From an uncultured Alphaproteobacteria bacterium (GTDB taxonomy: Bacteria > Pseudomonadota > Alphaproteobacteria > HIMB59 > GCA-002718135): a stretch of 64,000 bases of DNA. Shown here piece by piece: positions 43,077 through 47,394 of this stretch (the first letter of the stretch is position 1; the number at the start of each line of letters is the position of its first letter). Where the stretch lies: positions 1 through 64,000 of the forward strand of contig CACHBB010000001.1 of NCBI GenBank assembly GCA_902577945.1, read 5' to 3'. The position numbers and the translations under genes were made by a program. The notes beneath the pieces are model-generated. The model ran no database searches. It worked only from the letters and a program-made list of their open reading frames with translations, and was not told the origin of the DNA.

Positions 43077-45053
43077 ATGAACTATGAACCAGATAAAAAA
43101 ATAGCTGAAGAATTATTAAGTTACTTCAATTTAAAAAGATATTCTGAACTAATAAATAAAATTACAATTATACAACTGAAATTTCCACAATCTGTTTTTT
43201 TATTAAATATTTTAGGAAGTACATATTTTGAGTTAGGGAATAATGAAAAAGCAATTAAATCCTTTGAAAAAATAATTAAAATTAACCCTAGCTTTGCAGA
43301 TGCATATTATAATTTGGGAATTATTTATAAAGTTACTGGTAACACAGATAAATCATTCGATTGTTATATTAAATGTATTAATTTAAATCCTAAAAAATTT
43401 GAAGCTTATAATAATTTGGGTAATATTTACAGAGATAGAAATAATTTAGAAAAAGCAATTGAATATTATTTTGATTCTTTAAAAATTAATCCAAAATATT
43501 CTGTAGCACTACAAAACTTTGGTGTTTGCTTGCAGAATTATAAATTTAATAAAAGATCAGAGCTGATTGATAATCATATTGTAACTTTACTAGAGAGTAA
43601 TAAAATATTAAGACCTGTAGATGTTGTTCATAATTTAATAGACTATCTTTACTTAGATCCAAATTTTAAATTGATAATTGATGACAAAAAAGATTTAAAA
43701 AATAATAGGAATTTAGATCAAATCATTAAAAAAATTTTAGATTTTAAAATTTTAATTACTTTATTAAAAATTACCCCTATTACTAATATCAAAATTGAAT
43801 TTTTTTTAAGAAATTTGAGATACAAAATTTTAATAAATTTATTTGAAATTAAAAATAAAAAAGATGCATTAATACTTATGAAAACTATGGCAACGCAGTG
43901 CTTTATAAATGAATATATATACCCTGTGAAAATAGAAGAAAAAGAATTATTAAAAAGTATTGAAAATAAATTGCTTACTTATTTAGAAACTAATAAAAAG
44001 AATGACATTGAGCTAATTATTGCTTGTCTAGCAGCATACAAAACTCTAGGTTTATATAAATGGTCTGACCGAATAATTAATTTAGAGGAAATTAGTGAAT
44101 TAGTGACACAGCAGATTACTGAACCAAACAAAGAAAGAATATTAAAAAAACAATTAATATCTAAAAATATTAATAACTCTATTTCCTTAAATGTAATGAA
44201 ACAATATGAAAAAAATCCTTACCCTAGATGGAGCAAAATAGCATTAAATAGGCAGCAGAAAAATATAATTGAATTTTTTCAAAATCTTAATTTAAAATTT
44301 GAAAAAGCAAAACTAAAAGAATTGAAAAATATAAATGTGCTCGTAGCCGGTTGTGGAACAGGTCAACATGCGCTAACAACAGCTAGGAAATATGAAAATT
44401 CATTTATTACTGCATTAGATTTAAGTCTCAGTAGTTTAAGTTACGCAAAAAGAAAAGCAGATGAATTACAAATTAATAATATTGAGTTTATTCAAATGGA
44501 CATATTAGATATACAAAAACTTAATAAAACATTTGATATTATTGAAAGTGTAGGTGTACTTCATCATATGGAAAACCCCTTATTAGGATGGGAAAATTTA
44601 TATAAAGTATTAAACCAAGATGGATTAATGATGATTGGGCTTTATAGTGAAATTGCTAGAAAACATATAAAAAAAATTAGAGATAAAATTAAGGTTAATT
44701 ATTTAAATTTGACAGATGAAGATATAAAAAATTTAAGAGATGAAATTATTAAATCAAAAAATAAAGACAAAAAAATATTAACCTATAGTTCAGACTTTTA
44801 CTCACTAAGTACAATTAGAGATTTGTTATTACATGTTAAAGAGCATACATTTAATATTAATCAAATAAAAAATATATTAAAAAAATTGAATTTACAGTTT
44901 TGCGGCTTTGAAGATAGAGAATTAATTAATTTGTTTAATAAATACTATAATGGGAAAGAAGATATATATAACTTGGAAATTTGGAATGATTTTGAATTAA
45001 AAAATCCCAGAATTTTTGCAAATATGTACCAGTTTTGGTGTCAAAAAACTTAA
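43077..45053 (+). CDS. TPR-repeat protein fused to SAM-dependent methyltransferase
   Basis: Tandem TPRs (FADAYYNLGIIYKVTGNTDKSFDCYIKCINLNP) followed by VLVAGCGTGQHALTTARKY...ESVGVLHHMENPLLGWENLYKVLNQDG. Confidence 0.85.
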   Translation: MNYEPDKKIAEELLSYFNLKRYSELINKITIIQLKFPQSVFLLNILGSTYFELGNNEKAIKSFEKIIKINPSFADAYYNLGIIYKVTGNTDKSFDCYIKCINLNPKKFEAYNNLGNIYRDRNNLEKAIEYYFDSLKINPKYSVALQNFGVCLQNYKFNKRSELIDNHIVTLLESNKILRPVDVVHNLIDYLYLDPNFKLIIDDKKDLKNNRNLDQIIKKILDFKILITLLKITPITNIKIEFFLRNLRYKILINLFEIKNKKDALILMKTMATQCFINEYIYPVKIEEKELLKSIENKLLTYLETNKKNDIELIIACLAAYKTLGLYKWSDRIINLEEISELVTQQITEPNKERILKKQLISKNINNSISLNVMKQYEKNPYPRWSKIALNRQQKNIIEFFQNLNLKFEKAKLKELKNINVLVAGCGTGQHALTTARKYENSFITALDLSLSSLSYAKRKADELQINNIEFIQMDILDIQKLNKTFDIIESVGVLHHMENPLLGWENLYKVLNQDGLMMIGLYSEIARKHIKKIRDKIKVNYLNLTDEDIKNLRDEIIKSKNKDKKILTYSSDFYSLSTIRDLLLHVKEHTFNINQIKNILKKLNLQFCGFEDRELINLFNKYYNGKEDIYNLEIWNDFELKNPRIFANMYQFWCQKT

Positions 45054-45129
45054 ATTAAATGTTGGAGATAAAGGGATTCGAACCCTCGAAAGTATTGCTA
45101 CTTTACACGCTTTCCAAGCGTGCTGATTA
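45051..45129 (-). pseudogene. Partial tRNA-Ser copy (3' two-thirds, 5' end missing) with 3' flank
   Basis: Aligns without gaps to 46015-46093 (79 bp, 8 mismatches): anticodon arm, variable arm, T arm, acceptor 3' strand; no D-arm or 5' acceptor strand on its right side. Confidence 0.9.
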
Positions 45130-45259
45130 GAAAAGAGTTAAGAAATTACAAAGAGTTTTTTACAATTAAATATTAATTTTTGATGTAAATAGTTTGTCAT
45201 ATATGTGTCTAACATTGTATATAGTATTCAGATGAAATTTCTTATAGGTATTTTTAGTA

Positions 45260-45943
45260 ATGAAAATATTTGTTAAAAATCTTATTCTTGTTTTTATATT
45301 TTTCCTATCTAATCAAAACATAGCTTATGGAGAGAAATATCTAGAGGTTTTAAAATTATATGATTTATATTCTCAAGAAATTTTAGATATTGACCAACTA
45401 AATTCCAGCTTTGAGAAAATGAATCTAAATAGTGAAAATATAAAAAATTTAATTTCTCTAAGAAAAAGTGATATTGTTTCAGAAGATGATTTTATAAATG
45501 GTATAAAGAAAATTTTGGAAGAAGTTTCTAGTTTAGAAAATGAATTAAAAGAAAATAAAAAGGATAATATTGAAGTAGATACAACTAAATATGAGTTTCA
45601 AGTTGGAATTACAAATATACATGCCGCTGTAGTTTCTGATTTCAATTACGGAGATATATGGAACCATAAATTTGAAATTATTGATAATGAAATTTCTAAA
45701 ATTTCTTTTAAAAATTCTAAAAATATTGATTTATTAAAATTTTCAAAACCAAAAATAAAATTTTTGAAGGATAATAACTTTTCTATTCGTTCTAGTGTCA
45801 TCTATTTACCAGAACCGTCTGTAAGTGTTAGGTATGATTTTAAAGGAAAATTTATAGATAGCAATGTTGAAGGTGAGGTCATAATAACTTACACTGGACA
45901 TGAAGAGGCGGGATTAGTTTTATTAAAAGCAAAAACAAATTAA
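45260..45943 (+). CDS. Hypothetical putatively secreted protein (227 aa)
   Basis: N-terminal hydrophobic segment (MKIFVKNLILVFIFFLSNQNIAYG) resembling a signal peptide; helical middle; beta-rich C-terminus; no family recognised. Confidence 0.7.
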   Translation: MKIFVKNLILVFIFFLSNQNIAYGEKYLEVLKLYDLYSQEILDIDQLNSSFEKMNLNSENIKNLISLRKSDIVSEDDFINGIKKILEEVSSLENELKENKKDNIEVDTTKYEFQVGITNIHAAVVSDFNYGDIWNHKFEIIDNEISKISFKNSKNIDLLKFSKPKIKFLKDNNFSIRSSVIYLPEPSVSVRYDFKGKFIDSNVEGEVIITYTGHEEAGLVLLKAKTN

Positions 45944-46023
45944 GTTTTTGACTTGAATTAAGTGTGTCGTATGTTTGTCAAAATACAGTTTTTTCGAATA
46001 AACTTAATTACGCCTAAATTAAA

Positions 46024-46113
46024 TGGCGGAGAGAGAGGGATTCGAACCCTCGGTAGTATTGCTACTACACACGCTTTCCAAGCGTGCTGATTAAACCGCT
46101 CTCACATCTCTCC
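46024..46113 (-). tRNA. tRNA-Ser (anticodon GGA)
   Basis: Minus strand GGAGAGATGTGAGAGCGGTTTAATCAGCACGCTTGGAAAGCGTGTGTAGTAGCAATACTACCGAGGGTTCGAATCCCTCTCTCTCCGCCA: 7-bp acceptor stem, long variable arm, encoded CCA; anticodon at 46077-46079. Confidence 0.96.
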
Positions 46114-46128
46114 TTTTTTAATTAAGTA

Positions 46129-47394
46129 TTATATTAAATATTTATTATGAAAAGTATGATAAAAATAACTATCACTATTTTTGTGGCTATTATTTGAGTT
46201 ATTATTTATTTTTCCATTTTTAAATCTTTTAATATAAATGTATGCTACATATAAGATAATCTGATCTATATGCCATCTGATTTTTTTATTATTTATTAAG
46301 TAGCTAACATAGTTGGTATAGAATTTTAAAAAAATTTTTGAATTGTTAGTATTGATAAATAAAGATTGATTAGCTGTAATAGACGTTTGGAAGTATCTAA
46401 GCTCTTCCTTTATGTGTAAGGTCATATCGAAATTTTTATTCATTTCTAAATATTGATTTAAATCTTTGCAAATAATACTATCAGCATCAAAAATAAACAC
46501 TGGTTCGTTATATTTTTTCATTAATTCATCTACTAAAAGATATCTCCTAGCTGTGTAGTAAGATTTTGTTTCAATATTATCAAAATTAAATGATTTACTA
46601 TTTTCAAAGATTAATGAAAAATTTGTAATATTCAAATGTTCTATTTCAGAGCAAATTTTTTTTATTTCTTGTTCGCTAGCATCGTGGATCAAAATAGAGA
46701 TTAAATAACTTTTAGAATTTTTCTTCAAAGAATTTAAGAATCTTAATATTTCATTATTAAATATTTCATAGGTTCCAGAAACAACTACTATATAATTATA
46801 TAAAGATTCTATTTTATTTTTTTGATAAACTATTTCATGTTTAATTGGTGAATTATTATCTAGAATAAAATCAAAATTTTTCTTATCGATAAAAAAATAG
46901 TCTAAATTTTTATAATAATCTCTTCTATTTAATTTTAAATCACCTAAAATCTTTTCAGCTGCTTCAAATTGATCTGTTTCCAATAAATGGTGAAAATATT
47001 CAAACTGAATAAATAATATTTTTTTAATACCTGATTCTAGTGCTTCATAAAATATTTTAAATTCATGATTTTTTTTAAATTCTCTTAATAATTTTAAATT
47101 AAGATAATATAATTCATTTGTTAGTGGTGTTTTTTTATCTTTATTTAAACCAAATTTAATTAAGGAATCAATTAATTTGAATTTTAATTTCTTATTTTGT
47201 AAAAAATTTTTTTTTGTTGAAATAAAAGCAATATCTATCAAATTAGGTATCACTCTTAAATCATTAAATTTTCTATAAATAGATTTATAAAGCTGATATG
47301 ATTCTATAAATTTCTGTGCTTTGTAAAAATCTTTTGCTTTAATAACAATCGATTGTATTTCTTGAATATTTTGATTTTCATTTGTTAAAGTCAT
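46129..47394 (-). CDS. Putative glycosyltransferase (nucleotide-diphospho-sugar transferase-like) with helical N-terminus
   Basis: Catalytic-type FIFDADSIICKDL, ITANQSLFINTNN, WHIDQIILY. Confidence 0.6.
   Translation of the reverse strand: MTLTNENQNIQEIQSIVIKAKDFYKAQKFIESYQLYKSIYRKFNDLRVIPNLIDIAFISTKKNFLQNKKLKFKLIDSLIKFGLNKDKKTPLTNELYYLNLKLLREFKKNHEFKIFYEALESGIKKILFIQFEYFHHLLETDQFEAAEKILGDLKLNRRDYYKNLDYFFIDKKNFDFILDNNSPIKHEIVYQKNKIESLYNYIVVVSGTYEIFNNEILRFLNSLKKNSKSYLISILIHDASEQEIKKICSEIEHLNITNFSLIFENSKSFNFDNIETKSYYTARRYLLVDELMKKYNEPVFIFDADSIICKDLNQYLEMNKNFDMTLHIKEELRYFQTSITANQSLFINTNNSKIFLKFYTNYVSYLINNKKIRWHIDQIILYVAYIYIKRFKNGKINNNSNNSHKNSDSYFYHTFHNKYLI

Follow-up and report, generated by a model that had tools for sequence, protein, structure and literature searches.

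The window, that is the whole stretch of 64,000 nucleotides analysed here, carries a sole tRNA gene, tRNA-Ser(GGA) (ARAGORN), and a partial copy of this gene marks the other end of an element of 964 bp (Table 1). Positions 45051-45129 align with 46015-46093 without gaps over 79 bp, with 71/79 identical letters and 8 mismatches, and the similarity stops at about tRNA position 21, within the D-loop; any other 79-mer of the window, on either strand, matched the tRNA repeat at fewer than 42 of its 79 positions. The tRNA-bounded interval contains a single ORF of 60 aa or more, encoding a protein of 227 aa. The first-pass annotation, made from sequence alone, had reported the intact tRNA, the gap-free 79-bp copy with its 8 mismatches ending in the D-loop, the one 227-aa ORF and the lack of a recombinase in the interval; all of these held upon examination with ARAGORN, re-alignment, window-wide comparison and an ORF list, and what it overlooked were the two arm-like pairs inside the element.

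Table 1. Features of the tRNA-Ser(GGA) locus in the window.
Feature	Position	Strand	Remarks
TPR and methyltransferase gene	43077..45053	+	upstream boundary; ORF, Pfam, empty sites
Left attachment site, partial tRNA-Ser copy	45051..45129	-	tRNA positions ~21-90 plus 9 bp
Anticodon-loop letters of the partial copy, TTGGAAA	45111..45117	-	putative strand-exchange region; crossover inferred from the G026 chimera
Left arm-like pair, GTT-TGTCA-TAT-ATG-TGTCT	45192..45210	+	period 11 bp
Cargo gene, 227 aa	45260..45943	+	signal-peptide-like hydrophobic N-terminus; no Pfam match
Right arm-like pair, GTG-TGTCG-TAT-GTT-TGTCA	45962..45980	+	period 11 bp; ~44 bp before the tRNA 3' end
Intact tRNA-Ser(GGA)	46024..46113	-	target and right attachment site; ARAGORN
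Anticodon loop of the intact tRNA, TTGGAAA	46075..46081	-	putative crossover region; inferred from the G026 chimeric tRNA and the ARAGORN anticodon position
421-aa protein gene	46129..47394	-	boundary gene across the tRNA; ORF; no Pfam match

Relatives of the orphan protein were found in 11 of the 101 other genomes of the genus, and in other genomes there are longer ones (365-373 aa) with an extra C-terminal part. One long relative (L128 / L044, G005:C15) adjoins a tRNA-Arg gene and a phage-type integrase. The predicted fold (mean pLDDT 73) has a helical N-terminal and a beta-rich C-terminal part, without a significant match in the PDB. The gene is under purifying selection, with dN/dS of about 0.3.

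Empty, occupied and arrayed sites in relatives

The locus was used as a query against 102 genomes of the same genus, which are fragmented and 50-96% complete, and we examined 80 related loci in addition to the window. The site is empty in 25 related loci, where the stop codon of the flanking gene lies 5-46 bp from an intact tRNA-Ser(GGA); in 12 relatives it is the methyltransferase stop that lies 13-21 bp from the tRNA. In 28 loci, the window included, a partial tRNA, as a rule spanning positions 19-21 to 90, is followed by cargo and then by the intact tRNA, such that the left-attachment element occupies the equivalent spot in each and the same flank runs up to the repeat. Another 19 loci are occupied without a visible tRNA repeat. 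The island layout resembling attL/attR that had been proposed for the window thus held, given the empty sites and the displaced partial copies in relatives, and the two checks suggested with it, empty sites and different cargo between equivalent repeats, were both found. The tRNA repeat of the window is a genuine insertion scar.

Occupied sites may hold arrays of up to four repeat-bounded cassettes with differing cargo, as in G007. In G000 and G046 the unit with the orphan gene of the window is the only one at its site, and in G031 it has other units of an array on either side; another cassette recurs in different company in G033, G057 and G090. The median size over 41 delimited cassettes is 1,146 bp and the largest reaches 12 kb. 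A 12-kb cassette (L113, G043:C2:93000-112600) bears identical GTGCGCCGTATGTGCGCCG pairs at both ends and 11 ORFs of at least 70 aa. At the other extreme, a geneless cassette of about 125 bp beside tRNA-Ser in G067 (L065, on C3) consists of a tRNA piece and two TGATC arm pairs, and is MITE-like.

None of the 41 cassettes at the site encodes a tyrosine recombinase, and a Pfam search for PF00589 throughout the genus gave no match inside any of these islands. The cargo includes an ammonium transporter, a transporter of the small multidrug-resistance family, zinc dehydrogenases, esterases, a glutaminase, a homocysteine S-methyltransferase, a solute-binding protein, a transporter operon and many short unknown proteins. 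Comparison of 37 cargo proteins with PHROGs returned metabolic or unnamed families only, with no phage structural, packaging or replication genes, such as would mark a phage satellite or prophage remnant, among them, and no conjugation or integrase remnants were seen inside the cassettes. A defence role for the cargo was considered and rejected (PADLOC matched 2 of the 37 proteins). The cargo is mostly of the nutrient type, not defence.

The cassette of the window is younger than its surroundings. The dS of the orphan gene against the G046 copy is 0.39, below the 0.94-1.92 of nine neighbouring genes, and it was therefore horizontally exchanged; against G031 the value is 0.65, with neighbours at 1.14-1.76, and against the more distant copy in G094 it is 1.32, inside the range of the neighbours there. 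Exchange of the cassette between lineages thus postdates the divergence of the core genome; for G000 and G046, re-insertion cannot be distinguished from homologous replacement.

The position of the strand exchange was inferred from an element in G026 (L252:4809-7493, on C10), after whose insertion the intact tRNA-Ser has a foreign 5' half. This tRNA carries 9 mismatches in positions 1-33 and 2 in positions 34-90, and the displaced 5' fragment agrees with the host type at 41/41 letters (positions 1-41). The split of the mismatches places the strand exchange in the anticodon stem-loop. The G026 case is also an observation in its own right, that of a tRNA gene partly replaced by a mobile element.

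Paired words at the cassette ends and at integrases

A side-by-side comparison of cassette ends revealed a paired direct repeat, GTG-N5-NAT-GTG-N5, with a period of 11 bp. The pair at one end starts about 61 bp inside the left repeat, that at the other about 65 bp before the tRNA end. After removal of homologous cassettes, 26 remained for scoring. At each end, 17 of the 26 scored at least 11 of 13, as against 0.05% and 0.02% of shuffles, and clear arms were missing at one or both ends in 9/26. The N5 word varies among cassettes (TGCCA, TGCCG, TAGCC, TGATC, AGACC, CAACC, TGTCG and others; TGATC is found in G056, L062, and in the geneless L065 cassette). Within one cassette, however, the words of the two ends match: in the 17 cassettes with both arms readable they agree at 4.41 of 5 letters, an agreement reached in none of 20,000 permutations, versus 2.70 when permuted. 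The motif frame was derived from the same data, and the pairing test is independent of the choice of frame. An over-representation of the 13-mer TATGTGTGCCAAA was discarded, as most of its matches come from one conserved coding sequence, which we take to be MsrB-like.

The pairs of the window itself score just 10 and 11 of 13. Since both its repeats and its arms are somewhat worn, this copy is possibly no longer active, although the class to which it belongs may be.

Similar pairs accompany integrases. Where elements with an integrase occupy other tRNA genes of the genus (Arg, Gln, Leu, Gly and others), period-11 pairs lie directly upstream of the integrase, for example GTGCCGCGTATGTGCCGCG; an exact 8-bp pair lies near most of the 18 tyrosine integrases inspected, a near-exact one near another (L131), and the words differ. 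These pairs are best read as arm-type sites, the binding of integrase to them being inferred. At tRNA-Ser(GGA) itself, integrases with sites of this type are present in decayed form: those of the L132 type adjoin 5' fragments of this tRNA, with TGATC pairs, in G020, G026 and G094, the G026 element having a TGATC pair at both ends, and an integrase remnant with a different word lies at the same tRNA in G102, of another genus.

An intact helper integrase for tRNA-Ser(GGA) was detected neither in 162 genomes of the order (two families; inferred from this structure and PMC10734472 to be HIMB59, of the marine Alphaproteobacteria) nor, with the patterns tried, in viral contigs, and no integrase-bearing element with the TGTC word of the window was found at this tRNA. 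The exact tRNA 47-mer was absent from the viral contigs. A looser pattern matched 52 of them, a few with an integrase near the match and none with cassette-type arm pairs beside one; an L132-like integrase was not found there, and the arm patterns gave no matches or unrelated ones of higher GC. As the scans relied on exact patterns, they may have overlooked relatives. In the phage collection the integrases were just about 30% identical.

The search of the host genome for an integrase, also proposed in the first-pass annotation, yielded a single tyrosine recombinase, about 355 aa long, in this assembly, which is 82% complete. It belongs to a conserved recombinase of 355-368 aa that we considered as a helper and judged to be a chromosomal gene, because it is adjacent to a sirtuin gene, occurs in most genomes of the genus and has no cassette-type arm pair at the scanned copies; the sirtuin neighbour is present in both genomes examined (L256:303-1370 on G000:C4 and L258:3097-4155 on G046:C4). 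A helper role is not excluded.

A cassette probably moved by borrowed enzymes, and rival readings

We propose that the element of the window is a 964-bp non-autonomous integrative attP cassette mobilised in trans, a reading that we consider likely, neither movement nor excision having been observed. It would consist of one gene for a secreted-type protein, enclosed by the components of an attachment site: a core of tRNA-Ser(GGA) sequence, running from the anticodon arm to the 3' end, and two integrase sites of the arm type. The cassette would enter by recombination within the anticodon loop, which would restore an intact tRNA and leave the former 3' part at the opposite end. The enzymes are probably borrowed, because the cassettes have no insertion enzyme of their own and yet keep matched end sites of the integrase type. 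An integrase with the matching arm specificity, from another element or a phage, would insert and excise the cassette in trans, and the cassettes would copy the arm specificity of their helpers. That the pairs bind integrase and that the helper acts in trans are both inferred, and the vehicle between cells is unidentified. The choice between an element mobilised in trans and a decayed remnant had been left undecided from the window; the former is favoured by the lack of an integrase in all 41 cassettes together with matched arm-like end sites in most, the action in trans remaining an inference.

The decayed remnant, that is an immobile CIME-like fossil of a larger integrase-bearing element whose cargo was kept by selection, agrees with the decay of the integrase-bearing relatives at the same tRNA and with the worn repeat and arms of the window. 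It appears unlikely, however, as no trace of an integrase remains in 41 cassettes, the typical cassette is of about 1.1 kb with one gene, both arms are kept and matched in most cassettes, and the presence of one cassette in different arrays together with the low dS indicates spread without an integrase of its own. A replacement island is a weaker candidate still. Here, the content would be exchanged by ordinary homologous recombination between the tRNA and the conserved genes on its flanks, and the tRNA pieces would be fossils of the original insertions; neighbours at the locus do change, 19 occupied loci show no repeat and G000 and G046 have the cassette at an identical position. This leaves unexplained the matched arm words at both ends and the repeat-bounded cassettes in new orders, and the cassette is less diverged than the methyltransferase and transporter genes that flank it, such that we regard a replacement island as very unlikely. 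A segmental duplication of old date, with the gene between two tRNA copies, had been named beforehand as the outcome that would refute an island. It accounts for a direct repeat with 8 mismatches, but is refuted by the 25 empty alleles, the differing cargo and a cassette younger than its flanks.

The proposed trans-mobilised cassette resembles several known systems. Additive flexible genomic islands (fGIs) made of tRNA cassettes have been described in 'Candidatus Actinomarinales' (PMC7771536), and with tRNA-Lys repeats in 'Candidatus Methylopumilus' (PMC10872708). They share with ours the small size, the location at tRNA genes of streamlined aquatic bacteria, the partial tRNA repeat of each cassette and the additive arrays, and the defining tandem cassettes, tRNA-fragment repeats and variable content at one locus are all met here. 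In contrast, every cassette here is without a recombinase, and the paired end sites, the matched cassette word and the decayed helpers at the same tRNA are not described in the bearing sections of those papers. What is new is thus the matched word of the cassette ends, tRNA-cassette islands being already known. Of the marks of a tRNA-targeted island, the intact tRNA with a displaced copy and the empty site are met and an own recombinase is not. Tycheposons, of 4-200 kb and with a tyrosine recombinase (described in PMC10872708), are likewise tRNA-targeted marine elements with nutrient-type cargo, but with a median of about 1.1 kb and no tyrosine recombinase the cassettes meet neither description.

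CIMEs are cis-mobilizable elements that keep attL and attR without integration or transfer genes (PMC5704250), as the cassettes do; CIMEs, however, arise by decay of conjugative or mobilizable elements and move in cis by accretion, whereas the cassettes here mostly have one gene and complete arms, with no remnant of such an element seen inside them. The tandem arrays are compatible with cis mobilisation by accretion. Integron cassettes in CALINs, which are integrase-less arrays of mostly single genes thought to be moved in trans (PMC11389934), are similar in organisation, but the repeats here are 3' pieces of a tRNA with arm-type sites, and the nature of the repeats as copies of tRNA-Ser speaks against attC sites. 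In lambda-type attP sites, a core is flanked by arms with tandem direct repeats of about 10-11 bp. The cassettes have this arrangement, but, unlike in lambda, no integrase gene accompanies the attP and neighbouring cassettes of a single array differ in their arm word.

The arm word as a possible address, and other tRNA targets

Streamlined ocean bacteria swap genes at fixed spots despite having few mobile elements. The mechanism proposed here is that tiny cassettes mimic the attachment site of integrases and would need no enzyme of their own. A bolder reading, possible but less likely than not, is an integron-like exchange on tRNA genes in which the N5 arm word would be an 'address' read by diverse helper integrases; if true, the integrases entering a cell would decide which cassettes move. 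The proposal can be tested, since the arm word of a cassette should tell by which integrase it is moved.

Beyond the genus, G105, from a second genus, has tRNA-Ser(GGA) repeats and TGCCA pairs at both cassette ends. Beyond this tRNA, a single 222-aa gene in G040 (L212, on C2) lies between two tRNA-Leu(CAA) copies that differ at 3 of 85 positions, with no recombinase in the 3 kb examined; therefore, the design is not limited to tRNA-Ser(GGA). The product of the gene is one we take to be FkbM-type methyltransferase-like. This cassette carries TGTC arm pairs, a word like that of the window, and it is possible that the address is common across tRNA targets.
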